Source: Mucilaginibacter rubeus | GTDB taxonomy: Bacteria > Bacteroidota > Bacteroidia > Sphingobacteriales > Sphingobacteriaceae | Assembly: GCF_014643835.1 (NCBI RefSeq) | Contig: NZ_BMKD01000003.1 | Coordinates: forward strand, 248,001-312,000 | Direction: 5' to 3' | Length of the DNA stretch: 64,000 nt | Shown: positions 33,920 through 48,453 of the stretch, one piece after another | Numbering within the stretch: the stretch's first letter is position 1 | Layout: each line of letters opens with the position of its first letter | Position numbers and translations under genes: made by a program | Notes under the pieces: model-generated | The model's input: only the letters and a program-made list of their open reading frames with translations | The model's database searches: none | Told to the model about the DNA's origin: nothing

Positions 33920-33927
33920 TATATTTG
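33920..33927 (+). promoter_or_regulatory. Promoter -7 box of the SAM riboswitch transcript
   Basis: TATATTTG, an exact TAnnTTTG match, with a T-rich -33 region (GGTTTTAG, 33901-33908). Predicted transcription start is about 33933, roughly 25 nt before the riboswitch P1 stem. Confidence 0.6.
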
Positions 33928-33956
33928 CATCGTCAAATCGGTTCTTTGAATATTTT

Positions 33957-34068
33957 AATTATCAAGAAAGACTGAGGGAAAGGCCCTGTGATGTCTTAGC
34001 AACCTGTAAGCCCACTGTTATAAAGGTGCTAATTCCTGTCTGCCCAAAATAGGGTAGAAAAGATAATG
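33957..34068 (+). ncRNA. SAM-I (S-box) riboswitch
   Basis: P1 is closed by ATTATC (33958-33963) and GATAAT (34062-34067). Inside are the S-box core blocks in order: AAGA, GAGGGA with GGCCC, GATGTCTTAGCAACC, and AAGGTGCTAATTCC, then a short P4-like hairpin (TGCCCAAAATAGGGTA). This is S-adenosylmethionine-binding RNA, which in most known cases turns off sulfur or methionine genes when SAM is high. Downstream candidate expression-platform hairpins are CCTTG/CAAGG (about 34082-34100, then a pyrimidine-rich run) and AATATC/GATATT (34152-34171, next to the start codon at 34191). The next genes are a TlpA-like protein and a SusC/SusD pair, not a methionine enzyme. Confidence 0.93.
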
Positions 34069-34190
34069 TAATACGCTATGGCCTTGTATAGTGCAAGGTG
34101 TTGTATACTTCTTTTCCCTCTTCATTTTTCTTGCTAATTAAAATATTGAAAATATCACCGGGATGATATTACGGTTTAACCTGTATAGCA

Positions 34191-34760
34191 ATGAACATTA
34201 AACAATTACTTTTTACCTGTTTGCTTTTCATAACAACATTGCCGGCTGTTGCGCAGATCACCAAGGCAATTGATCCGACAGCTGACGACCGCGGTTATAT
34301 CATAAAAACCGGTGATCTTGCTCCTGCCGATTTTGAGCTCGTATTGACCAATGGTACAAAAACTTCTTTAACGAAGTTGCATGGTAAGGTGGTTATCCTG
34401 CAGTTTACCGCAAGCTGGTGCAGCGTATACAGAGAAGAAATACCGCATTTGGAAAAAGAGATCTGGCAGGCTTATAAAGATAAAGGCCTTGTGTTAATAG
34501 GCGTTGACCGCGATGAACCGCTCAACAAAGTAAAAAGTTTTCACCAGGTCATGAATATAAGCTATCCGTTGGCACTCGATCCTGGTGCTGAGATTTTTGG
34601 CCGGTTTGCCAGCAAAAAGAGCGGTGTTACCCGCAATGTGGTTATCGATCGGGATGGGAAAATTGTTTACCTCACCCGCTTGTACGATAAACAGGAATTT
34701 GCGTCCATGTTAAAAGCTGTGGACGCTTTGGTAAACAACAAAACAGCGTCCATCAATTAA
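34191..34760 (+). CDS. TlpA/peroxiredoxin-like secreted thioredoxin-fold protein, CxxY
   Basis: 189 residues with a signal peptide (ends AVAQ, residue 21). Thioredoxin-fold segment: GDLAPADFELVLTNG, HGKVVILQFTASWCSVYREEIPHLEKE, VLIGVDRDEP, and the cis-Pro region GVTRNVVIDRDGKIV. The usual CxxC of TlpA/ResA proteins is here Cys77-Ser-Val-Tyr80: the resolving Cys is replaced by Tyr (codon TAC). With a single Cys it cannot be a standard dithiol oxidoreductase; a peroxidase, a mixed-disulfide or a substrate-binding role is possible. It is the first gene after the SAM riboswitch and lies upstream of a poly-Cys ORF and SusC/SusD. Confidence 0.88.
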   Translation: MNIKQLLFTCLLFITTLPAVAQITKAIDPTADDRGYIIKTGDLAPADFELVLTNGTKTSLTKLHGKVVILQFTASWCSVYREEIPHLEKEIWQAYKDKGLVLIGVDRDEPLNKVKSFHQVMNISYPLALDPGAEIFGRFASKKSGVTRNVVIDRDGKIVYLTRLYDKQEFASMLKAVDALVNNKTASIN

Positions 34761-34795
34761 AAAGAATCTATCAGTACTTATTTAATACCCGTTTT

Positions 34796-34903
34796 ATGAA
34801 AACAGAATCTACTTTTTTACACAAGAAAACTTTCGTTTCGGAAAGCCAGTCAATCTGCAAATCCTTCTGTCTCAATATGCAAAGCATGCATTGTTGCTGT
34901 TAA
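34796..34903 (+). CDS. Candidate 35-codon leader ORF ending in Cys-Cys-Cys
   Basis: ATG at 34796 opens a 35-codon frame that ends ...ICKSFCLNMQSMHCCC and stops with TAA at 34901. It has five Cys in the last 15 residues, the last three in a row. It is too short for routine gene callers. The last Cys codons (TGT TGC TGT, 34892-34900) form the left arm of a hairpin: TGCTGT (34895-34900) pairs with ACAGCA (34910-34915), and the stop codon falls in its loop. An alternative pairing joins two copies of self-complementary AGCATGCAT (34883-34891 and 34912-34920). This geometry fits a cysteine-sensing attenuator, like poly-Cys leader ORFs described in mycobacteria. It is not proven to be translated. 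Confidence 0.45.
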   Translation: MKTESTFLHKKTFVSESQSICKSFCLNMQSMHCCC

Positions 34904-35095
34904 TCATTTACAGCATGCATGGTGTTTAAATGCGGGCTTGCTGCAGTTTGTCTTAGCTTAATAATTACCATCCCCTAATCAATTCTTTACAGTTACGATA
35001 GGCTTATGAGCCGGGCAAATTATGCCCGCTAAGGCGATAGCCATGTCTTTTGTACCGGTAAAGGCATCAAAAATTAATCTCAATTATTAATTATC
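34904..35095 (+). promoter_or_regulatory. Structured leader of the first SusC gene
   Basis: The region after the poly-Cys ORF has the ACAGCA arm and second AGCATGCAT copy, then a hairpin CGGGCA-N5-TGCCCG (35012-35028). The latter is nested in GGCTTA/TAAGGC-type outer pairing (about 35001-35040). No T-tract follows it, so it is not an intrinsic terminator on its own. I do not recognise a named riboswitch here. Confidence 0.45.
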
Positions 35096-38000
35096 ATGTT
35101 AAAAATTTACAAGCTATTACTGGCAATTATATTGCCTTTTATTCTCGTCCAGACGGTTGCGGGGCAATCCGTTAAAATAAGCGGGGAGGTAACCGCCAAA
35201 TCCGATGGGTTGCCGTTGCCGGGTGTCAGCGTATCTGTTAAAGGTAAAACCACGGGCGCACAAACCAATGTTGATGGTAAGTTTATCATCAACGCCAATG
35301 TTAATGATGTGCTTAGGGTTAGCTACATTGGCTTTACAACCCAGGAGATCCCGATTACGCAAGGAATAACTACCTTAAACGTGGTTTTGGTTGAAGCACC
35401 AAATTCTCTGAATGAGGTAGTGATAACGGCCCTCAATATCTCAAAGGATAAAAAATCGCTGGGATATGCGGTACAAGGGCTTAAATCGAAAGATATTTCT
35501 GAGGCAAAGGAAACCAACTTTGTAAACGCGCTGGCCGGTAAAATTGCCGGTGTGCAGGTTACCAACAGCCAGGGCGATATGGGTTCATCACGTATCGTTA
35601 TCCGTGGTGAAACTTCTATCACTAAAGATAATCAGCCTTTGTTTGTAGTTGACGGGGTTATTGTTGATAATACCCAGTTTTTAGGATCTGGTGGTTCAAG
35701 GGATTTCGCTAATGCCCTCTCTGATCTCAATTCTGAAGACATAGAGTCGCTAAGCGTGTTAAAAGGCCCGAATGCTGCAGCCTTATACGGTTCACGCGCG
35801 GCAGCAGGCGTTATCCTTATTCGTACCAAAACAGGTAAAGGAGCAAAAGGGCTTGGGGTTACCATTAACTCTAATACCAGCTTTTCAAATGTGCAGGTAT
35901 TACCCAAATATCAAAATGAATACGGCCAGGGTTCAAATGGTAAATTCAGTTATGTTGACGGTAAGGGCGGTGGCGTTAACGATGGTGTTGACGAAAGCTG
36001 GGGGCCTGCATTGGATGGCTCATTGATCCCGCAGTTTTATTCCAATGGACAGGCTGTGCCATTTATCGCCCATCCCGATAACGTAAAAGACTTTTTTAGG
36101 ACTGGCGTGACGCTTAATAATGGTATTGCGTTTGCGGGCAGTAACGAAAAGAGTGATTTCCGGGTATCTTACAATAACCTGCATCAAACTGGCATTGTCC
36201 CAAATACATCGCAGGGGCGCAACTCATTCGCTTTAAATTCAAGCTACCGTTTCAATCCTAAATTAACAGTAAATACCACTGTTAATTATATTAAAGATGA
36301 TGCTGATAACCTGCCGGGCGCTTATGGAAAACGCGCAACCAGTACCATGCTGCAGTTTACCTGGTTTGGGCGCCAGGTTGATATCAACAAGCTTAAAAAC
36401 TACAAGGATGCCAATGGAAACACTTTTAACTGGAATAACAGTTACTATAGCAACCCATACTGGCTGGCTTATGAAAACACGGTTGGTCAGCACAAAAATC
36501 ACCTGATCGGAAGCGTTGAATTGAATTATAAGATCATCGATGGCCTATCGGCAAACTTCCGTACCGGTACCGATTATTATAATGACCGCCGTAAAATCAA
36601 GGTTGCTTATGGCACTAATGGAACACCGTTTGGCTCATATGAGGAAGATGCTTACAGCGTAAATGAAAATAATACGGAAGGCAGGTTGCAGTATACCAAA
36701 AAACTAAACAATGATTTTTCGCTTGATGCATTTGTTGGTGGTAATATCTCGGTAAAAACACTCGAACAAAATGATCAGTTAGCACCTAAACTTGCAATTC
36801 CGGGACTATATAACATGGGTAATTCGCGTGATCCACTGGTTTCAACAAACTTTTATTCTAAACTTAAAACTAACAGTGTGTTCGGATCGGCACAGGTTGG
36901 GTTCAGGAATTATGCCTTCGTTAACGTAACGGCACGTAATGATTGGTCTTCATCATTGCCAATTGATAACATGTCATACTTTTATCCCTCAGTAAACGGA
37001 AGCTTAATACTATCCGAAGCGTTGGGCATTAAAAGCGATGTGCTTACCTATGCTAAATTAAGAGGTGGCTGGTCTAAAGTGGGTAAGGCTACCGATCCTT
37101 ACCAGTTAAGGAATGTATTTGCCTCATCAATCCTTTTCAATGCTAATCCACAGCAAAGTTTACCGGCTACAGATGCCAATAACACACTGAAACCAGAAAG
37201 TACAACATCGGCAGAGGCTGGCTTTGAATTAGGCTTTTTTCAGGACAGGTTACATCTGGATGTAAGTGCATACAATACCAATAGTACCAATCAAATACTT
37301 GCGGTTCAGGTTAGTTCGGCCACGGGTTTTGGTCAAAAAATCATCAATGGGGGGCGCCTTAATAATAAAGGTCTTGAGATACAATTGGGGATAACGCCAA
37401 TTAAATCAAAGGAGTTTACCTGGGATATCACTACTAACTATTCGTTGAACCGCAGCATGGTTGCTTCGCTTGATGCCGAAGGCCGTTTGCAAAGTCTGCC
37501 AATTGGGTCTGACCGAACTGTACAGGTAACAGCGGCACTTGGCCAGCCTTACGGCGCACTTTATGGTACCGCTTATACGCGTAACGCTTCCGGGCAAATC
37601 GTTATCGATGCTAACGGTACACCTGTATTCAACACAACCAAACGTTACCTTGGCAAATTCACTCCAAATTGGTTAGGAAGCATCAATAACAGCTTCACCT
37701 ACAAAGGCATTAACCTGAGTTTCCTGGTTGACGCGCGTTTCGGTGGATCTATCTACTCAAACACCAACCGTACTGGTACCTATACCGGCGTACTGGCTTC
37801 TACCTTACCGGGGCGCGGTGCTGCTAACGGTGGTTTAAGCTATTACTATCCGGATAATAAAACAACAAATCCAGCGGTGCAGGTAACCGGCGCTGCTCCT
37901 GTCGGGGTGACGGTATATAATGATGGGATGATATTTAAAGGCGTTAAGGCTGATGGTTCACCAAACACCACTATCATCCCTGCGCAATCATACTACAAAG

Positions 38001-38278
38001 GCTTTACCAATATTGATGAAGCATTTGTTTACGATGCCTCATACATTAAGCTTCGCGAAGTAAAGCTGGGCTATTCTTTACCTGCTAAATGGGTGAATAA
38101 AATAGGCTTCCAGGGAGCTACATTTTCGGTAGTTGGCCGTAATCTGTGGATCATCCATAAAAACGCGCCGAACATTGATCCGGAAACAGCCTTTAATGCC
38201 GGCAACGGACAGGGCCTTGAAGACCTTACCTTGCCTACCGTGCGTAACATCGGTTTTAATGTAAACCTTAAATTCTAA
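35096..38278 (+). CDS. SusC/RagA-family TonB-dependent transporter (sulfur-linked unit)
   Basis: 1060 residues. The signal peptide ends near TVAGQ. A CarboxypepD_reg-like domain (about residues 24-105; LPLPGVSVSVKGKTTGAQTN) precedes the plug (NALAGKIAGVQVTNSQGD, RIVIRGETSI, LFVVDGVIVDN, LKGPNAAALYGSRAAAGVI) and the barrel, which ends NIGFNVNLKF. It forms the outer-membrane pore of a SusCD pump with the SusD 6 bp downstream. No HTCS, sigma factor or GH gene is attached. Instead it follows a SAM riboswitch, a TlpA-like gene and a poly-Cys ORF without an intervening clear terminator. The cargo is therefore more likely a sulfur-containing compound or peptide than a polysaccharide; this is inference. 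Confidence 0.93.
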   Translation: MLKIYKLLLAIILPFILVQTVAGQSVKISGEVTAKSDGLPLPGVSVSVKGKTTGAQTNVDGKFIINANVNDVLRVSYIGFTTQEIPITQGITTLNVVLVEAPNSLNEVVITALNISKDKKSLGYAVQGLKSKDISEAKETNFVNALAGKIAGVQVTNSQGDMGSSRIVIRGETSITKDNQPLFVVDGVIVDNTQFLGSGGSRDFANALSDLNSEDIESLSVLKGPNAAALYGSRAAAGVILIRTKTGKGAKGLGVTINSNTSFSNVQVLPKYQNEYGQGSNGKFSYVDGKGGGVNDGVDESWGPALDGSLIPQFYSNGQAVPFIAHPDNVKDFFRTGVTLNNGIAFAGSNEKSDFRVSYNNLHQTGIVPNTSQGRNSFALNSSYRFNPKLTVNTTVNYIKDDADNLPGAYGKRATSTMLQFTWFGRQVDINKLKNYKDANGNTFNWNNSYYSNPYWLAYENTVGQHKNHLIGSVELNYKIIDGLSANFRTGTDYYNDRRKIKVAYGTNGTPFGSYEEDAYSVNENNTEGRLQYTKKLNNDFSLDAFVGGNISVKTLEQNDQLAPKLAIPGLYNMGNSRDPLVSTNFYSKLKTNSVFGSAQVGFRNYAFVNVTARNDWSSSLPIDNMSYFYPSVNGSLILSEALGIKSDVLTYAKLRGGWSKVGKATDPYQLRNVFASSILFNANPQQSLPATDANNTLKPESTTSAEAGFELGFFQDRLHLDVSAYNTNSTNQILAVQVSSATGFGQKIINGGRLNNKGLEIQLGITPIKSKEFTWDITTNYSLNRSMVASLDAEGRLQSLPIGSDRTVQVTAALGQPYGALYGTAYTRNASGQIVIDANGTPVFNTTKRYLGKFTPNWLGSINNSFTYKGINLSFLVDARFGGSIYSNTNRTGTYTGVLASTLPGRGAANGGLSYYYPDNKTTNPAVQVTGAAPVGVTVYNDGMIFKGVKADGSPNTTIIPAQSYYKGFTNIDEAFVYDASYIKLREVKLGYSLPAKWVNKIGFQGATFSVVGRNLWIIHKNAPNIDPETAFNAGNGQGLEDLTLPTVRNIGFNVNLKF

Positions 38279-38284
38279 AACATC

Positions 38285-39721
38285 ATGAAACTTAAATATA
38301 TCAGCATATTATCCGCCGCGGTTTTATTATCGGTAACATCGTGCAAAAAGGAACTTGCCAGGATCAATCAAAACCCTAACGGCTCGCAAACGGCGCAGCC
38401 AGATTACTTGTTGACAGCAGCTACTAAAGCCACTTCTGATACTTATTGGGGAGTAGCCAATAACATGGACGCCAGCTTGCTTTTTGTTCAATACTGGTCT
38501 AAAATTCAGTATAGTGACCCGGACCGGTATATTTATGCCAGTACCGCCTTTGAAGAACTCTGGAGTACGGGCTATTCAAAAAGCATTGTAAATCTGAATG
38601 AGATCATTAAAATTGGCGATGCTCAGGGTAATGCCAACTATAAAGGTGTCGCATTGGTGTTACGTTCATGGACATTTAGTTTGTTGACCGAGGCATACGG
38701 TAACGTTCCTTACAAACAGGCCACCAATATTGATCAATATCTTACCCCGGCTTATGATACACAAAAGGATGTTTATTTTGCTTTGTTAGATGATTTGAAA
38801 ACGGCTCAAGCCGCGCTTGATCCATCAGGCAAAGCTATAGCAGGAGATGTGATCTACAGCAATAATATTGCTTCCTGGAAAAAGTTTGCCAACTCGTTAA
38901 GGCTTCGCATCGCCCTGCGCATTGCCGATAGGGAACCAGCCAAGGCTAAACAGGTGCTTGCAGATATCCAGGCCGAAGGCGGCTCATACATCGGTTCGAA
39001 TGCCGAAACCGCGCAGTTGGTTTATTTAGATTCGCCTAACCAAAATCCGGTAAGCAATCTGTTTGATACCCGTGACGATTACCGTATCAGTAAAACTATA
39101 GTTGATAAGCTGTTTGCACTCAATGACCCACGCTTATCTATATACGCAGCCAAAACGCAGGACCCCACACCTCAAACTTATGTTGGCTTGCCAAACGGTT
39201 TGTTGGTGGGCGATGCCAGCAATTACGGCTTCACCAAAACTTCTAAACCAGGCACTTATTTTCGTGCACCACATGCCCCTGCTGTAATATTAAGCTATAC
39301 CGAAAGCTTGTTTGATAGGGCTGAAGCTGCCGCTCGCGGTTTTACTACCGAAGATGCTGCCTCGCTATACGGTCAGGCCGTTACCGCTGCATTGGCGCAA
39401 TACGGTATTGCTTCGGCGGATATTACTACCTATTTGGCGCAACCGGCAGTGCAATATGATGCCTCTAATTATAAAAAATCAATTGGCGAGCAAAAATGGC
39501 TAGCCTTGTTTGGCCAGGGATTGGAAGGCTGGACCGAATGGCGCAGGCTTGATTATCCTCAACTGCAACCCGCCGTTGCAGGTACACTGAATGGTAAAAT
39601 ACCGGTAAGGTTTATTTATCCAGGTACAGAGCAATCGCTCAACAAAACTAATTACCAATCGGCGGTGGCAGCACAGGGAGCTGATGCGCTTACTACCAAG
39701 CTTTGGTTTGATGTAAACTAA
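38285..39721 (+). CDS. SusD/RagB-family surface lipoprotein (SusD-like_2)
   Basis: 478 residues. Lipoprotein signal with lipobox SVTSC at Cys20. The helical TPR-type fold of the SusD-like_2 group is suggested by ALVLRSWTFSLLTEAYGNVPYKQATN, NSLRLRIALRIADREPAKAKQVL and the C-terminal QKWLALFGQGLEGWTEWRR. It binds ligand as a lid over the SusC barrel at the cell surface. SusD-like_2 members often occur outside glycan loci, with peptide or small-molecule partners, which agrees with the lack of GH genes here. It is 6 bp after SusC and followed by a terminator. Confidence 0.92.
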   Translation: MKLKYISILSAAVLLSVTSCKKELARINQNPNGSQTAQPDYLLTAATKATSDTYWGVANNMDASLLFVQYWSKIQYSDPDRYIYASTAFEELWSTGYSKSIVNLNEIIKIGDAQGNANYKGVALVLRSWTFSLLTEAYGNVPYKQATNIDQYLTPAYDTQKDVYFALLDDLKTAQAALDPSGKAIAGDVIYSNNIASWKKFANSLRLRIALRIADREPAKAKQVLADIQAEGGSYIGSNAETAQLVYLDSPNQNPVSNLFDTRDDYRISKTIVDKLFALNDPRLSIYAAKTQDPTPQTYVGLPNGLLVGDASNYGFTKTSKPGTYFRAPHAPAVILSYTESLFDRAEAAARGFTTEDAASLYGQAVTAALAQYGIASADITTYLAQPAVQYDASNYKKSIGEQKWLALFGQGLEGWTEWRRLDYPQLQPAVAGTLNGKIPVRFIYPGTEQSLNKTNYQSAVAAQGADALTTKLWFDVN

Positions 39722-40440: not shown

Positions 40441-40613
40441 TCGTCGTCGTAAATAACGCCGGACTGATAATTTGCTATGTAGCCCGAATAAGCAAATCTT
40501 CCCTTATTGTAACGGGTATTTTACATTTTTGTAATATTATTGTTTACTTTACAATTAATTAGGTAGCTTTAATCTTCCAATTATTTGTGTAATTCACAGC
40601 CTGCAACTTGTTA

Positions 40614-43600
40614 ATGAAAAAGGGATCCTTTGTCTGTTTTGTTCTTTTTTTGATCATTTCTTCGGCCCATGCGCAGTCGCCCATCAAAAATAAGATCCTC
40701 AATTATTCTTTAAAAAATGGTCTTTCTTTTGGTATTGTAAATAGCATTACACAGGATGATAAGGGTTTTATGTGGTTTGCCACCAATGATGGGCTCAATC
40801 GTTTTGACGGTACAACTTTTAAGATTTTTAAATCGCGCCTGGGCGATTCAACTGCGCTGGCCAGTAACTATGTACAAAAGGTTTTGTGCGATGTTCATGG
40901 CAGTATCTGGGTGTCGTCAAGAAACGGCCTCAGCAAATTTGATAGCCGTACAGAAAAGTTTATCCATTATAAATTCACCTCTAACAAGGCCGTCAAAAAC
41001 GATATCAGTAATATCATCCAAAGCCATGATGGTAATTTATGGATCACATCTTATGGGCAGGGATTTTCTTATTTCAATACCAAGTCAGTAAAAGTTGTTA
41101 ATTACACCCAAGCCAATTTGTCCCGGCTGTCAAGTAACAGGGTGCTCTGTTTGTACGAAGATTCAAGGGGCCTGGTATGGGTGGGTACACAGGAAGGCAG
41201 CATCAATGTTTTTAGTCATAAGGATGGTGTAATAGCCAACCTTGCGGGCATAGGCCCTCCAATAGCCAACCTGCCGGGTACCCGGATCAATGATATTTTT
41301 GAAGATCATTTTCACAACATGTGGATAGCAACCGGAAGCGGGCTCGGCTACTACAACAGGCAATCAAATAAATTTACCTTACTGCAAACCGGTCAGCAGG
41401 GTATTAAAAGTAAACGATACATATCAGTTATTGAAGATAGCGATAAGCAATTGCTTGTAGGTCTGCAGGATGGGGGGCTGTTTAAAGTTAACATTGGTAC
41501 AAGCTCCAACTACAACATTAATAACTTTTTTCTTCAGCCGGTAACCGGCGATGACGGGTATTACCTTACACAGCGCTCTGTTCAAACGCTTTATATAGAT
41601 AAGGATAAAAATGTTTGGGTAGGTACCTATGGCGATGGCATTTACATGGTGAGCAGCATTAAGGAGAAATTTTCAAAGATTGCTAAAAAGCGATATGGGG
41701 CCAGCGGCGAAAGTTTGGTAAGGTTTTATGGCCTGTGCCAGGATCGCGACGGCTTTTTATGGCTGGGCACTGATGGCGAGGGGATTTACAAAACCAGCCA
41801 CAATGGCACCCTTATAAAGCAATACAAAGCAGATGGGCAGCCCGGCAGCATTACCGACAATGCCATTTTATTCGGCTATACCGATCAGGATGGTGATTTA
41901 TGGTTTGGTACTTATGCAAAGGGACTTTTGCAATATAACAAGAAAACGGATTCGTTTGTCAACTACCTACACACCCAGGCAGATAACAAAAGCCTGGGTG
42001 GTAACGACGTACGGGTTATCTACCAGGACAAGCATAAAAATTTATGGATTGGCACCAATGGCGGCGGCTTGTGCCTGTTTAATGCCGTTACAAAGTCTTT
42101 CACCAACTATACACCAGCCAATAGCGGCCTTACTTCATACGATGTAAGATCAATTGCCGAAGACGGTAATGGTAATTTATGGGTTGGTACTTATGGTGGG
42201 GGACTTGATTTTTATAACGCCGGACAAAAGAAATTCAGCAGGTATTTTAAACCTGTTGATGAAAAAAACAATTTACCCGGCCAGGTGATATTTTCACTTC
42301 ATCCCGACAAACAACACAGGTTATGGATAGGAACCGAGGGCGATGGATTAATTTCATACGATCTTCAAAACCGGGTTTTTAAAAAGTTTAATGAAACTAA
42401 TGGCCTGGCTAATAATACAGTATCGGCCATTAAGGAATCATCTGATGGTTCATTGTGGCTAAGTACCAATAAAGGCTTATCAAACCTTGATGTACGGAAT
42501 AATAAGATCTTAAATTATGATCAGTCGGATGGGTTACAGGCCGGGCAGTTTAACGCAGGGTCTGTTTTGTTTGATTCTGCTAATGGATTAATGTATTTTG
42601 GGGGAACAGAAGGGCTTAACTTTTTTGACCCTGAAAAAGTAAATCAAAGCGATTATAAACCAAAAGTTATTATAACAGGTTTGCAGATTTTTGGTAAGCA
42701 GGTTGAAGTTGGCGGGCTTGACAAGGACCGCACCGTATTGCCCGAAGCCATTAACCAGGCAAGGCAGATCACGTTACAGCCTGATCAGTCGGTGTTTTCT
42801 ATCCAGTACGCCTCGTTGAATTATACTTACCCGGATAAGGGGGGCTTTGCTTATAAACTGGATGGTCTTGATAAAACCTGGAACTATGTTGGCGATCAGC
42901 GGCTTGCAACTTACCGCTACCTTGAACCCGGGGAATATACGTTCAGGGTAAAAGCATCCAACCAGGATGGCTTGTGGTTTGATAATTATGCCACCTTACA
43001 GGTTAAGATCCTGCCGCCCTGGTATAAAACCTGGTGGGCTTATTTAATTTATATAGCGGCAGCAGGGGTTGTAACTTATTACTATATACTTTACAGAAAC
43101 CGCCAAACCAGGCTTAAATACGAGGTTAAAGTAGCCCAGCTTTCGGCCGAAAAAGATAAGGAACTTAATGAGCGTAAACTTTCCTTTTTTACCAATATCT
43201 CGCATGAATTCCGCACACCGTTAACGCTCATCATCAACCCGGTAAAGGATATGTTGTTCGGGAAGGGCGAGGTTACTGATGACGCCGGTAATTTGCATAT
43301 CATTTACCGCAACGCACGGCGTCTTTTGAGTTTGGTTGATCAGCTTTTACTATTCAGGAAAGCCGAAAGCGACACTGATAAGCTTAAAATAGTAAGGCTT
43401 AATATCGTATCGCTTTGTCATGAGGTGTTTTTATGTTTTAATCACCAGGCACGTACCAAGCATATTCAGTTTGATTTTGTAAGTCAAAGGGATGCGATAG
43501 AGATTTATGCCGACAGGGAAAAAATGGAAATAGCCCTGTTTAACCTCATCTCGAATGCGTTGAAGTTTACACCGGAGTATGGCATAGTAACTTGTACAAT

Positions 43601-44801
43601 AGCCGATTTTAACGATAAAATTACCATCGAGATAAAGGATAGCGGCTGTGGAATAGCCGAGGGTACCGGCGATCAGTTATTCGGCAAGTTTTACCAGTTG
43701 CAAAATTCGGCGCCAATGGCAGGCGGGTTTGGCATTGGGCTATACCTGGTTAAAGCGTTTATTGAAAACCATAAAGGCAGCATCGGTTATACCAGCCAGC
43801 AGGGGCAGGGCACGGTGTTTCATGTATCGTTGTTAAAAGGCAGGGAGCATTTTGGGCAGCAGTTTGTGTTTGAAGACGTTGCCGAAACTTCGGTGTTCCT
43901 GGATGAGCTAATGGAGAATAAGGGTGAATTAGCCGCCGTTGAGGCTGAAAACGCCGTCGCAGCCAAAAATTCTGAGGCTTTAAGCTCCGATACCAAAACC
44001 ATGCTGCTGATTGATGACAATCAACAGATCCGTACGTACCTTAAACAAATTTTTACAGGCGAATTTGAGGTTTTTGAAGCCGATAATGGTACAGATGGAC
44101 TTGAACTTGCTTATCACCTGGTGCCCGATATTGTAATAAGCGACGTAATGATGCAGGGGTTAAGCGGTATTGAGGTATGTAGCCGTATTAAGGAAGATCC
44201 TGTGCTGAACCACATCCCCGTGATATTGCTTACCGCCAGTTCCTCGCCCGAAATAAAGCTTAAAGGTATTGAAGGAGGGGCGGATGATTATATCAGCAAG
44301 CCTTTTGAAAAAGAGATCCTGGTGGCCCGTGTTAACGGGATCCTGAAAAGCAGGAACAACCTGCAGAAGTATTTCTATAATGAAATAACCCTTAACAAAT
44401 CAAATGATCTCAAGATTTCGCAGGAGTACAAGGAATTTTTAGAAAAATGTTTGCAGATAGTTGAGCAGCACTTAACCGACCCGGATTTCAGCATCAAAAC
44501 ACTGGCTGCCGAAATAGGCATGAGCCACTCTAACTTATACAAGCGGATCAAATCTATTTCCGGGCAATCTGCAAATAGTTTTATCCGTTTTATCCGCTTG
44601 CGTAAGGCGGCCGAGATCTTGCTGACAACCGATAGCACAGTTTACGAAACGGCCTATAAAGTGGGCTTAAATGACCTCAAATACTTTAGAGAACAATTCA
44701 ACAAGCTGTTCGGTATAAATCCGTCCGATTACATTAAGAAATATCGTAAGCCATTTCACAACAATTACAACGTGAACCGGGATGTGATTAAGGAGAATTA
44801 A
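40614..44801 (+). CDS. Hybrid two-component system regulator (HTCS)
   Basis: 1395 residues from ATG 40614 (a TTG at 40608 is less likely). Order of parts: signal peptide (ends SSAHAQ); 14-bladed periplasmic propeller of Reg_prop repeats (about residues 25-690, many D-G-x-L/I-W-I/V-G-T units); Y_Y_Y domain (about 715-795); membrane helix (about 805-828); HisKA with phospho-acceptor His864 in NISHEFRTPL; HATPase_c (NLISNALKF, GFGIGLYLV); receiver domain with Asp1177 in VISDVMM; C-terminal AraC HTH (about 1290-1390). It senses an oligosaccharide in the periplasm and binds DNA from the same, membrane-anchored protein. Its target is probably the SusC promoter 470 bp downstream. Confidence 0.97.
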   Translation: MKKGSFVCFVLFLIISSAHAQSPIKNKILNYSLKNGLSFGIVNSITQDDKGFMWFATNDGLNRFDGTTFKIFKSRLGDSTALASNYVQKVLCDVHGSIWVSSRNGLSKFDSRTEKFIHYKFTSNKAVKNDISNIIQSHDGNLWITSYGQGFSYFNTKSVKVVNYTQANLSRLSSNRVLCLYEDSRGLVWVGTQEGSINVFSHKDGVIANLAGIGPPIANLPGTRINDIFEDHFHNMWIATGSGLGYYNRQSNKFTLLQTGQQGIKSKRYISVIEDSDKQLLVGLQDGGLFKVNIGTSSNYNINNFFLQPVTGDDGYYLTQRSVQTLYIDKDKNVWVGTYGDGIYMVSSIKEKFSKIAKKRYGASGESLVRFYGLCQDRDGFLWLGTDGEGIYKTSHNGTLIKQYKADGQPGSITDNAILFGYTDQDGDLWFGTYAKGLLQYNKKTDSFVNYLHTQADNKSLGGNDVRVIYQDKHKNLWIGTNGGGLCLFNAVTKSFTNYTPANSGLTSYDVRSIAEDGNGNLWVGTYGGGLDFYNAGQKKFSRYFKPVDEKNNLPGQVIFSLHPDKQHRLWIGTEGDGLISYDLQNRVFKKFNETNGLANNTVSAIKESSDGSLWLSTNKGLSNLDVRNNKILNYDQSDGLQAGQFNAGSVLFDSANGLMYFGGTEGLNFFDPEKVNQSDYKPKVIITGLQIFGKQVEVGGLDKDRTVLPEAINQARQITLQPDQSVFSIQYASLNYTYPDKGGFAYKLDGLDKTWNYVGDQRLATYRYLEPGEYTFRVKASNQDGLWFDNYATLQVKILPPWYKTWWAYLIYIAAAGVVTYYYILYRNRQTRLKYEVKVAQLSAEKDKELNERKLSFFTNISHEFRTPLTLIINPVKDMLFGKGEVTDDAGNLHIIYRNARRLLSLVDQLLLFRKAESDTDKLKIVRLNIVSLCHEVFLCFNHQARTKHIQFDFVSQRDAIEIYADREKMEIALFNLISNALKFTPEYGIVTCTIADFNDKITIEIKDSGCGIAEGTGDQLFGKFYQLQNSAPMAGGFGIGLYLVKAFIENHKGSIGYTSQQGQGTVFHVSLLKGREHFGQQFVFEDVAETSVFLDELMENKGELAAVEAENAVAAKNSEALSSDTKTMLLIDDNQQIRTYLKQIFTGEFEVFEADNGTDGLELAYHLVPDIVISDVMMQGLSGIEVCSRIKEDPVLNHIPVILLTASSSPEIKLKGIEGGADDYISKPFEKEILVARVNGILKSRNNLQKYFYNEITLNKSNDLKISQEYKEFLEKCLQIVEQHLTDPDFSIKTLAAEIGMSHSNLYKRIKSISGQSANSFIRFIRLRKAAEILLTTDSTVYETAYKVGLNDLKYFREQFNKLFGINPSDYIKKYRKPFHNNYNVNRDVIKEN

Positions 44802-45270: not shown

Positions 45271-48200
45271 ATGAAACTAAATTTACATGTAAAGGATTCT
45301 CCCCATCGGAAAAGATCACCCCGCTTTTTCGTAGTTGCGGCCGGCATGGCCGTTGCTTGTTTCGCTACAGTCCAAATGCCGGTAATGGCTTTTGCGGGTA
45401 CCATTAATGAACAGCGCTTACCTGATGCCAGAATAACGGGCCAGGTTACCGACGAAAAAGGCCAGACCCTGCCAGGTGTAAGCGTTGCCTTAAAAGGCAC
45501 ATCAACCGGGGTTGTTACCGATGTTAACGGTAAGTTCAGCCTTAACGTGCCCAGTGCTTCATCAGGCATTTTAGTGTTTAGCTATATTGGCTACAACACG
45601 CAGGAAATTATCCTTAACGGGCAAGCTACTCTTAACATTCAATTACAGGCCGATTCTAAATCATTGAACGAGGTTGTGGTTGTAGGTTACGGTACACAGA
45701 AAAAAGCCACTTTAACGGGTTCAATTTCGCAGGTTAAAGGCTCTGAGCTGGTAAAAAGCCCTCAGCCAAATCTTTCAAACGGTATTGCCGGTCGTTTTTC
45801 GGGGGTAGTGGTTAATAACCGCAGCGGTGAACCTGGTTATGATGGTTCAGGTATTACTGTACGTGGTTTGGCCACCAGCGGCAGCAACGATGTATTAATT
45901 GTTGTTGACGGTATTCCGGCTCAGATAGGCGGTTTGGAAAGGCTTGATCCTAATGACATTGAAAGCATGTCGGTACTAAAAGACGCTTCAGCTGCAATTT
46001 ATGGTAACCGTGCTGCTAACGGTGTTATCCTCATTACTACAAAACGCGGTAAAACCGGTAAACCAACTATCAACTATAGTTTCAACCAGGGCTTCAGTTC
46101 GCCAACCCGCTTGCCAAAAATGGCCGACGCGGCAACTTATGCCCAGATCATGAACGAGATTAATTACGACTCGAACCCGGCCGGCGGCTTAAACCAATCG
46201 TATACTGCCGAGCAGATCCAAAAGTTTAGGGATGGTTCTGACCCGTTAAATTATCCAAATACCGATTGGGAAAAGCAAACGCTTAAAGGTTCGGCTTTGC
46301 AAAACCAGCATAGCCTTTCTATTGCCGGTGGTAGTGATGATATCAAATACTTTGTATCATTAGGTACGCTTTACCAGGATGGTATTTATAAAAATGGTGC
46401 TACCAAATATCACCAATATAATTTCCGGTCAAATATTGATGCTAACGTTACTAAACGCTTAAAAGTAGGTTTATCACTTTCGGGCCGTGAAGAAGACAGG
46501 CAATTTCCGATAACCGGTGCGGGCGATCTGTTCCGTTCTGTTTACCGTGCTAAACCTATTGTAGCCGCTTATTATCCAAATGGCTTGCCAACTACAGGTA
46601 TCGAAAATAATAACCCGGCAGTACAGGTAACGAGTCTTGGTGGTAATGCCAACAATCCTAAACAGGTTTTTAACGGTATTTTAAAAGGTAGCTACGCTAT
46701 CCCTGGTATTGAAGGTTTATCAGTTGATGGTTTCTTTTCTGTTGATAAATCGTATAACTTGAATAAAAACTTCAGTAAGCCGTATGTTCTGTATAGCTAT
46801 GTTCAGAGTTCAAATACTTATAATAAGGTTACAGTAGGCGGCAATAACAATGCGGCAACTTTATTCGAGTCGCAAAGGAACGATATTTTGCTTACCTCGA
46901 ATATTAAATTAAACTACGCGCATAAGTTTGGTTTGCATGATGTGAGCGCTTTTGTTGGTTATGAACAAAGCAAAAACCACATCGAGTACTTTGATGCTAC
47001 ACGTTTTAACTACCTGTCATCGCAATTGCCTGATCTGTCGCAAGGCGGAAGCGCAGCTACCGATTACCTTAATTCGGGCTGGAGCTCAAATTACAATCGA
47101 GCCAGCTATATCAGCCGTTTAACATACGCTTATGATGAAAAGTATTTGTTTGAAGGCCAGTTACGCGCTGATGGTACATCAATTTTTCCGGGCGCAAAAC
47201 AATGGGGCTATTTTCCTTCTGCTTCGGTAGGTTGGAGAATTACTAAAGAAGATTGGTTTAAAAACAGTGTAGGATTTTTTGATGATCTGAAAATCAGGGC
47301 TTCTTATGGTTCGTTAGGTAATGACGCTGTTGGCCCGTTCCAGTATTTTAATAACTATACTTTAGTTCCCAATGGTTTTGTGGCAAGCAATCCGGGTAGC
47401 GGCTCGAACGTTATTCAGCCAAACGTTAATCTTGTTAAATTGGCAAACCCCGGCATTACATGGGAATCCTCTAAAAAGCTCGATATTGGTATCAATGCCA
47501 CTTTTTTGCATAATTTTACAGTGGAGGCCATCTATTTCCAGCAAAGAAGGCGTAATGTACTTACAGCCAGGAATGCGTCGATTCCCGGATCATCAGGTAT
47601 AGTTAACCCTTATGGCTCAGATCCTCTGGTGCCACTTGAAAATATAGGTAAGTTTAACAGTGATGGTTTTGAGGCAACTTTAGGTTATAACCATACCGGC
47701 CATGAATTTACGTGGGGTGTAAGCGGTAATATTACTTATGCCAAAAGCAAAATTGTTTTCATTGATGAGGCACCCGGTGCTTTATCTTATCAGCGCCAAA
47801 CAGGTTTACCGATAGGTACGTCATTACTTTACAACGCGATAGGTATATTCCGTACCCAGGCCGAGCTTGATGCAACGCCGCACGTAACCGGCGCTAAAGT
47901 TGGCGACTTGATATACCGTGATGTTAATAATGACAAGCAAATAAATGCCGATGACCAAACCCGTAGCAAATACGGCAATATCCCGCAAATTACTTATGGC
48001 TTTAGTTTAAACGCAGCATACAAAAACTTCGATCTTTCGGTACTATTTGCAGGCCAGGCGCAGGTTAGCCAGTATGTATTGCCCGAAGCAGGTAGTGTAG
48101 GTAACTTTTACAGCAGCTGGGCCGATAACAGGTTTAGCCCCTCAAACACCAATGGAACTTATCCACGTGTAACAGACCGAGCATCGAACGCTATCAGTGG

Positions 48201-48453
48201 TGGTTTATATAACAATACTTTTTGGCTTAATGATGCTTCTTTCCTTCGGTTAAAGAATGTGCAATTAGGCTATAATTTCAATGCGCCGTTCCTATCAAAA
48301 CTTAAAATAGGTGGTTTAAGGGTTTACGCAAGTGCGTTCAACTTATTCACCATTACCAAAGTGAAGGATTACGATCCTGAAGGAACCAGTGGCAGCGGTC
48401 AGTTTTATCCGCAACAGCGAATTATAAACTTAGGTGCTAACGTGAAATTTTAA
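45271..48453 (+). CDS. SusC/RagA-family TonB-dependent transporter of the HTCS PUL
   Basis: 1060 residues. It has an unusually long charged N-terminus (MKLNLHVKDSPHRKR) before the hydrophobic signal segment (AGMAVACFATVQMPVMAFA). CarboxypepD_reg-like domain (LPGVSVALKGTSTGVVTDVN), TonB-box/plug region (LNEVVVVGYGTQKKATLTGS, IAGRFSGVVVNNRSGEPG, LIVVDGIPAQIGG, LKDASAAIYGNRAANGVI), and a barrel ending RIINLGANVKF. Imports oligosaccharides with the SusD encoded 14 bp downstream, after surface cleavage by the GH5 and GH30 enzymes that follow. Likely under HTCS control via the CCCCCT boxes. Confidence 0.96.
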   Translation: MKLNLHVKDSPHRKRSPRFFVVAAGMAVACFATVQMPVMAFAGTINEQRLPDARITGQVTDEKGQTLPGVSVALKGTSTGVVTDVNGKFSLNVPSASSGILVFSYIGYNTQEIILNGQATLNIQLQADSKSLNEVVVVGYGTQKKATLTGSISQVKGSELVKSPQPNLSNGIAGRFSGVVVNNRSGEPGYDGSGITVRGLATSGSNDVLIVVDGIPAQIGGLERLDPNDIESMSVLKDASAAIYGNRAANGVILITTKRGKTGKPTINYSFNQGFSSPTRLPKMADAATYAQIMNEINYDSNPAGGLNQSYTAEQIQKFRDGSDPLNYPNTDWEKQTLKGSALQNQHSLSIAGGSDDIKYFVSLGTLYQDGIYKNGATKYHQYNFRSNIDANVTKRLKVGLSLSGREEDRQFPITGAGDLFRSVYRAKPIVAAYYPNGLPTTGIENNNPAVQVTSLGGNANNPKQVFNGILKGSYAIPGIEGLSVDGFFSVDKSYNLNKNFSKPYVLYSYVQSSNTYNKVTVGGNNNAATLFESQRNDILLTSNIKLNYAHKFGLHDVSAFVGYEQSKNHIEYFDATRFNYLSSQLPDLSQGGSAATDYLNSGWSSNYNRASYISRLTYAYDEKYLFEGQLRADGTSIFPGAKQWGYFPSASVGWRITKEDWFKNSVGFFDDLKIRASYGSLGNDAVGPFQYFNNYTLVPNGFVASNPGSGSNVIQPNVNLVKLANPGITWESSKKLDIGINATFLHNFTVEAIYFQQRRRNVLTARNASIPGSSGIVNPYGSDPLVPLENIGKFNSDGFEATLGYNHTGHEFTWGVSGNITYAKSKIVFIDEAPGALSYQRQTGLPIGTSLLYNAIGIFRTQAELDATPHVTGAKVGDLIYRDVNNDKQINADDQTRSKYGNIPQITYGFSLNAAYKNFDLSVLFAGQAQVSQYVLPEAGSVGNFYSSWADNRFSPSNTNGTYPRVTDRASNAISGGLYNNTFWLNDASFLRLKNVQLGYNFNAPFLSKLKIGGLRVYASAFNLFTITKVKDYDPEGTSGSGQFYPQQRIINLGANVKF

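Follow-up and report, generated by a model that had tools for sequence, protein, structure and literature searches.

The locus described here lies on a 64-kb stretch of Mucilaginibacter rubeus DNA, hereafter the window, within which all positions are numbered. Its first element is a class I S-adenosylmethionine (SAM-I, or S-box) riboswitch, followed on the same strand by a gene for a TlpA-like protein, a short open reading frame (ORF) ending in cysteine codons, and a SusC–SusD (SusCD) pair, the two genes of which are adjacent and 6 nt apart (TIGR04056 and PF12771). All of these parts had been listed in an initial annotation of this DNA, and all are present (Table 1). SusCD pairs are signature importers of the Bacteroidota, and most have been assigned glycans or general peptides as substrates. 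Our analysis suggests that this importer is switched on when the cell is short of sulfur.

The SAM-I riboswitch and its place before SusC

The RNA at the head of the locus is a genuine SAM-I riboswitch. The covariance-model check with cmscan accepts it at 84.1 bits against a gathering cut-off of 44.4, with the match spanning positions 1–108 of the RF00162 model, and RF00162 is the sole Rfam family to reach gathering level in the window. Relatives were collected by a search with SusD, which found 165, and the best 80 of these 165 were used; their taxa include Mucilaginibacter, Hufsiella, Pedobacter, Sphingobacterium, and Chitinophagaceae. A covariance model (R1) was built from 27 strand-corrected riboswitches, many from these same genomes, with an RNAalifold structure that omits helix P1. 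The window's riboswitch, which is itself part of the model, scores 109.8 bits with R1, and the model yields 64 matches in the window and the 80 loci.

A riboswitch is observed upstream of SusC, on the same strand, in 59 of the 80 relatives and thus in 60 of 81 loci when the window is counted. The initial annotation had placed the riboswitch before SusCD rather than methionine genes; this holds for the gene order in the window, and the arrangement is conserved across the relatives at that same frequency. The gap between riboswitch and SusC is 247–372 nt in 42 of the 60 loci, and a short TlpA gene stands between them in 18, two of which also carry a NifS-like gene. The other four R1 matches are two on the opposite strand (L010 and L012) and, in L022 and L025, a second riboswitch copy ahead of a NifS-like gene.

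Table 1. Features of the locus in the window
Feature	Position	Strand	Evidence
Promoter −7 box TATATTTG	33920..33927	+	fits the Bacteroidota sigma-A consensus TAnnTTTG
SAM-I (S-box) riboswitch aptamer	33956..34069	+	RF00162, 84.1 bits, E 2.1e-18, full length
Candidate expression platform, pyrimidine-rich, predicted to pair with 33945–33986 (aptamer 5′ half)	34079..34152	+	prediction only
TlpA/ResA-like thioredoxin-fold protein, secreted (signal peptide by eye)	34191..34760	+	PF00578, active site WCSVY
Upstream ORF, 35 codons, end Cys-Cys-Cys-stop, candidate cysteine leader peptide	34796..34903	+	
Hairpin UGCUGU...ACAGCA, 5′ arm formed by the last Cys codons	34895..34915	+	RNAalifold
SusC/RagA family TonB-dependent outer-membrane importer	35096..38278	+	TIGR04056, 643 bits
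SusD-like_2 lipoprotein, importer lid	38285..39721	+	PF12771, 380 bits; lipobox LSVTSC by eye

Promoter, switching, and the poly-Cys ORF

The sequence TAnnTTTG, the −7 consensus of the Bacteroidota sigma-A promoter (PMC9723704), is found within 110 nt upstream of the riboswitch in all 60 loci, with its first base at −19 to −36; locus L062 has a second copy at −66. The background is 201 of 4000 random 110-nt windows, which were not restricted to intergenic DNA. The 300 nt before SusC contain no such box in any of the 18 TlpA-type loci, which speaks against SusC having a sigma-A promoter of its own, and promoters of other types may exist. The absence of a convincing terminator between the first gene and SusC, as first annotated, is borne out as well: the sole plus-strand candidate is a 5-pair stem at 34931–34945. 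Could the riboswitch instead control the TlpA-like gene only, with SusCD regulated separately from its own promoter? The 335-nt gap between TlpA and SusC has room for a different type of promoter; a one-off box (TACTTTTT) is present at 34810, and a weak sigma-70-like match falls at 35106–35133, inside SusC. However, the lack of TAnnTTTG boxes in the 300 nt before SusC in 18 of 18 TlpA-type loci and the short riboswitch–SusC distance in 42 of 60 make this arrangement improbable.

A terminator-like hairpin lies 3′ of the riboswitch in 32 of the 60 loci, compared with 4.8 expected, and most of these loci are from Pedobacter. SAM control by termination is therefore probable at those loci. The window presents a different candidate. 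A duplex between the 5′ half of the aptamer (33945–33986) and the pyrimidine-rich tract at 34079–34152 is predicted at −38.3 kcal/mol versus −16.4 (sd 3.2) for resampled sequences, and pairing of the aptamer 5′ half is unusual (≤0.05) in 35 of 60 loci. Classical pairing of the 3′ strand of P1 is unusual at the 0.05 level in 13 of 60 and is not significant in the window (0.28). If the predicted pairing of the 5′ half with the pyrimidine tract forms, it would preclude the aptamer fold. A reasonable reading is that expression is off with SAM.

The short ORF before SusC ends MQSMHCCC-stop in the window, and its TGY-TGY-TGY-stop is the sole such site on either strand of the 64 kb. ORFs whose final six codons include three or more for Cys precede 37 of 78 SusC genes versus 7 of 768 other genes from these loci (Fisher 9.8e-36), and 7 of 3900 first-order Markov resampled leaders have such an ending. 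Under a two-Cys rule, 44 of the 78 SusC loci have a leader, and 38 of these 44 have a riboswitch. Both Cys codons are used in the 44 leaders (89 TGT and 61 TGC), and Cys makes up 2.8% of the body and 57% of the last six residues; the latter value is partly built in by the selection for at least two Cys, the unbiased measure being 37 of 78. Position and end are conserved, the peptide body is variable, and six leader peptides searched against NCBIfam give no match. The ORF thus has the makings of a cysteine leader: it is short, carries a run of regulatory codons near its end, and precedes a related operon.

RNAalifold applied to 14 leaders gives a single helix, in which the last Cys codons pair with bases after the stop codon through 5 pairs, each present in 12–13 of the 14. 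The poly-Cys ORF does not look like part of a classical transcription attenuator, because terminator-like hairpins are not clearly enriched downstream (6 of 44 loci against 2.8 expected, with the window not among the six). The simplest common reading is a leader that tracks Cys-tRNA. The initial annotation had listed the poly-Cys ORF but left it uninterpreted; here it emerges as a conserved candidate leader that other sulfur genes have too, and control of SusCD is therefore probably two-input.

Cysteine leaders and SAM riboswitches at other operons

Leaders behind SAM riboswitches were counted with one rule, requiring an ATG start, a length of 8–60 amino acids, and two or more Cys among the final 7 residues; the second riboswitch in L288 is included. 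The operons came from 28 genomes, 8 first sampled and 20 chosen for having at least three riboswitches. A Cys leader precedes metY in 6 of 6 cases in the first 8 genomes and in 10 of 13 in the further 20, and it precedes metH in 0 of 22 (0/4 and 0/15 in these two samples and 0/3 in the phylum-wide top-score sample). Within the 28 genomes, the comparison is 16 of 19 metY versus 0 of 19 metH (Fisher 8.7e-8). Four metH leaders of 259–332 nt likewise have no Cys leader. Among the 30 best-scoring riboswitches in a draw of 296 genomes, a sample biased toward top scores, 24 lie before metY, 3 before metX, 3 before metH, and none before SusC.

The association of Cys leaders with sulfur genes extends beyond riboswitches. 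TonB receptors beside cysHDN have a leader in 5 of 5 loci, which were picked for a nearby hit. In these loci (L221–L225), the TonB-dependent receptor adjoins cysH-cysD-cysN and sirohaem genes, and the short ORF before it ends CCCC. In a set of 30 loci, leaders were tested at cysH in 17 and at cysD in 6, with one clear leader overall; it precedes cysH. At two further cysH loci a loose two-Cys ORF is found, at distances of 276 and 848 nt. For cysS, encoding cysteinyl-tRNA synthetase, 5 of 30 genomes pass the loose two-Cys rule, and 3 have clear leaders. The 7 matches among the 768 other genes of the SusC loci comprise one arylsulfatase-like gene, three PhyH-like genes (two called by Pfam and the third by likeness), one TonB receptor, and two genes with no sulfur link (L006 3466 and L024 14682). 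The arylsulfatase-like gene lies at L009 1898–3799, and the PhyH-family dioxygenase-like genes at L006 1402–2208, L012 8–814, and L059 12135–13019; these leader-preceded genes may be novel sulfur-scavenging genes.

The poly-Cys leader also offers a simple sequence tag for finding novel sulfur-acquisition genes. A pattern of four Cys codons plus stop occurs at 168 sites in 20 genomes versus 13 for the reversed pattern, a difference that serves as a lead only. Five of 30 such sites examined (L131–L160) are clear leaders; the others were rejected, being within or opposite longer ORFs, lacking an ATG, or having no gene close downstream. A set of 20 regions contains the 5 TonB leaders noted above (in regions chosen for a nearby cysH), 1 cysS leader, 2 leaders before a fatty-acid-hydroxylase gene, and 12 regions with no convincing leader. 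Two further loci combine a SAM riboswitch with a Cys-ending short ORF, L310 before cysH-cysD-cysN and L316 before an SsuD-like monooxygenase neighborhood (gene names assigned by eye in both).

The recurrence of the leader at these genes bears on another explanation: the poly-Cys ORF might act upstream as a metal (copper) sensor or encode a small protein that binds metal, like the CruR ORF that precedes a TonB transporter in Bordetella, and SusCD would then transport a metal ligand. Thiophilic metals can bind Cys-rich ends, and the poly-Cys ORF does stand before TonB receptors. However, the same kind of leader is found before metY (17 of 43 over all samples), cysS (3 of 30), one cysH, and an arylsulfatase-like gene; it is coupled with SAM riboswitches; and the peptides vary widely outside the terminal Cys run. 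We regard a metal sensor as very improbable.

SAM riboswitches were also surveyed in 20 regions from eight genomes. As expected, they precede metY-metX-hom and metH-metF. They also head two import operons, TlpA-SusCD (L124) and M28 peptidase-TonB (L120), and two TlpA-cytochrome c peroxidase operons (L127, and L112, where a TonB gene follows); L123 is the same SusCD locus as L076. The last two operons consist of a riboswitch, two TlpA-like genes, a YceI-like gene, and a MauG-type cytochrome c peroxidase, to which L112 (540–8151) adds the TonB receptor. A neighboring riboswitch in L112 precedes a DsbD-like gene and is accompanied by a Cys leader. Sixty further loci, taken from 64 places in 20 genomes with at least three riboswitches, have a SusC or TonB gene as the first or second gene after the riboswitch in 7 cases; 5 are new, and L273 and L286 are L041 and L037. 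Riboswitch-first outer-membrane import is thus a recurrent, minor branch of the SAM regulon.

Cargo and proposed control of the importer

Among solved structures, the best match to SusC is the peptide-bound BT2264 (E 1.2e-131; next 1.3e-49). For the second SusC of the window (45271–48453), BT2264 ranks ninth (1.5e-24), and other solved SusC homologues are closer. BT2261–64 and RagAB hold oligopeptides (PMC7782687). The likeness of our pair to these systems lies in the sequence of SusC; SusD is closest to 5j5u, a RagB/SusD-domain chain. The neighborhood includes thioredoxin-fold proteins (a short form in 18 loci and a long form in 39), a PIG-L deacetylase, and, in 6 loci, a NifS-like aminotransferase-V protein, of which the one tested reaches 403 bits where the NifS cut-off is 530.75. 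The TlpA-like gene of the window matches PF00578 (AhpC-TSA) at 69.7 bits, and its best NCBIfam match is ResA at 70.1 bits, under the cut-off of 170. WCxxC is kept in 16 of the 18 members of the TlpA cluster; the window and L017 have WCSVY. Several NifS-like genes have their own or a shared SAM riboswitch, a number of them near SusCD: L022 16489–17619, L025 12389–13519, L024 4569–5774, L026 4649–5785, and L012 5042–6172, as well as genes in L274 and L309.

The initial annotation had proposed that SusCD imports a sulfur nutrient. A role in sulfur nutrition is supported by association only, through the riboswitch, the Cys leader, and the NifS-like and thioredoxin-fold partners; sulfur-containing peptides or disulfides are our best guess at the substrate. 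The cargo might instead have nothing to do with sulfur, being ordinary oligopeptides or a glycan, with methionine-linked control serving general amino-acid scavenging. The BT2264 and RagAB proteins bind oligopeptides with no stated preference for sulfur in the part of that report used here (PMC7782687), SusD ranks glycan-binding chains above BT2263, and a riboswitch-linked M28 peptidase-TonB operon exists (L120). However, SAM and Cys codons bring two distinct sulfur signals to bear on SusCD, and the NifS-like and thioredoxin-fold partners recur. A cargo not chosen for sulfur is therefore unlikely, though clearly less so than either a metal ligand or a separately driven SusCD.

Our studies lead us to propose, with a probability of roughly 60%, that the locus encodes a sulfur-starvation SusCD importer under two serial RNA inputs, SAM and cysteine. 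The TAnnTTTG box ahead of the S-box RNA would set the start of transcription. Abundant SAM would let the aptamer fold and shut expression off, whereas a fall in SAM would allow read-through into the TlpA-like gene and on across the poly-Cys leader to SusCD. Ribosome progress over the terminal Cys codons would report the supply of Cys-tRNA, and stalling there would be expected to favor SusCD. We infer both of these switching directions, as well as the leader mechanism. The importer, with its SusC of the BT2264/peptide type, would most likely take up sulfur-containing oligopeptides or disulfides, and the TlpA-like partners, joined in some species by a NifS-like desulfurase, may process the imported sulfur compounds. 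At about even odds, the proposal can be widened: many soil Bacteroidota (Mucilaginibacter, Pedobacter, Chitinophagaceae, and some others) would share a two-input, RNA-encoded sulfur regulon in which a SAM-I riboswitch and a poly-Cys leader act in series, with AND-type control (low SAM and low Cys-tRNA). The regulon would include SusCDs for sulfur-rich peptides, and leaders alone would mark further sulfur genes (a TonB receptor by cysHDN, cysS, a sulfatase, and a PhyH-type dioxygenase).

Several observations weigh against the two-input importer. Model R1 finds no riboswitch before SusC in 21 of the 80 related loci, 3 of which (L007, L023, and L040) are contig ends too near SusC to judge, and the loci are related, so the counts are not independent. 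No terminator-like hairpin follows the riboswitch in the window or in any Mucilaginibacter locus. The leader hairpin has 0 compensatory changes among the 14 leaders, terminator-like hairpins are not clearly enriched after the leader, and many Pedobacter leaders retain just one or two terminal Cys. A Cys leader is missing from the gene next to the riboswitch in the TlpA-SusCD, M28-TonB, and TlpA-MauG-TonB operons. The link between leader and metY is lineage-limited, because the leader is present at only 1 of 24 metY genes in the phylum-wide top-score sample, where gaps are about 106 nt; over all samples, the comparison with metH is 17 of 43 versus 0 of 22 (Fisher 2.6e-4). In the majority of metH leaders there is too little length for a Cys leader to fit, and cysS and cysH mostly have none. 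In this strain, the TlpA-like protein has lost the second Cys of the CxxC active site. Finally, BT2263 ranks only 20th–21st among the matches to SusD, behind several glycan-binding proteins.

The initial annotation had also suggested that riboswitch control would set this SusCD apart as a distinct class. The SAM class on SusCD looks new, but riboswitch-run outer-membrane importers are already known: B12 and thiamine riboswitches control outer-membrane transporters in Bacteroides (PMC6143338, PMC7366714). As described there, a riboswitch stands ahead of a TonB-dependent importer, as it does here; the ligand in our case is SAM, a product of the cell rather than an imported vitamin, and the importer is a SusC–SusD pair. 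Compared with SAM-I riboswitches in general, the aptamer sequence and fold are alike, a terminator-like hairpin is found at the same 32 of 60 SusC loci, and the same genomes use the riboswitch on metY-metX-hom and metH-metF. The differences are the SusCD target and, in the window, a platform predicted as aptamer 5′-half pairing with no clear terminator.

Two-signal leaders and polycysteine ORFs have precedents. A Xanthomonas SAM-I riboswitch also senses uncharged initiator tRNA (PMC7270179), so that one leader takes two methionine- or sulfur-linked signals, as proposed here; there, according to the portion of the report considered, one expression platform serves both, whereas our second input would come from translation of an ORF of its own. 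The leaderless polycysteine short ORFs of mycobacteria (Canestrari 2020) are reported as cysteine-responsive attenuators (PMC9094748, PMC13236596). These are likewise short ORFs with Cys codons before operons, but, so far as those accounts go, ours belong to another phylum, are embedded in a longer leader, in many cases downstream of a SAM riboswitch, and stand before SusCD, metY, and TonB receptors. Signs of leader peptides precede amino-acid operons in Flavobacterium (PMC9723704). Among the matches listed in a literature search, no open-access title or abstract start describes SusCD preceded by a SAM riboswitch, or Bacteroidota with a poly-Cys leader. The parts are known, and novelty appears to lie in their combination and target, a SAM-class riboswitch coupled to a cysteine leader on SusCD. 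A SAM riboswitch and a Cys-codon leader on one SusCD family would provide a direct handle on its substrate, namely sulfur compounds, and the same arrangement informs sulfur sensing and amino-acid leader peptides in Bacteroidota.

The locus has close counterparts in the genus. SusD of the window is 95% identical to that of Mucilaginibacter gossypiicola and 94% identical to that of M. gossypii, and the flanking PEP-mutase-like and IPP-isomerase genes are 96% identical to those of M. gossypii at the protein level. Downstream in the window, a hybrid two-component regulator, recognized by eye, occupies 40608–44801 and is followed by the second SusC.

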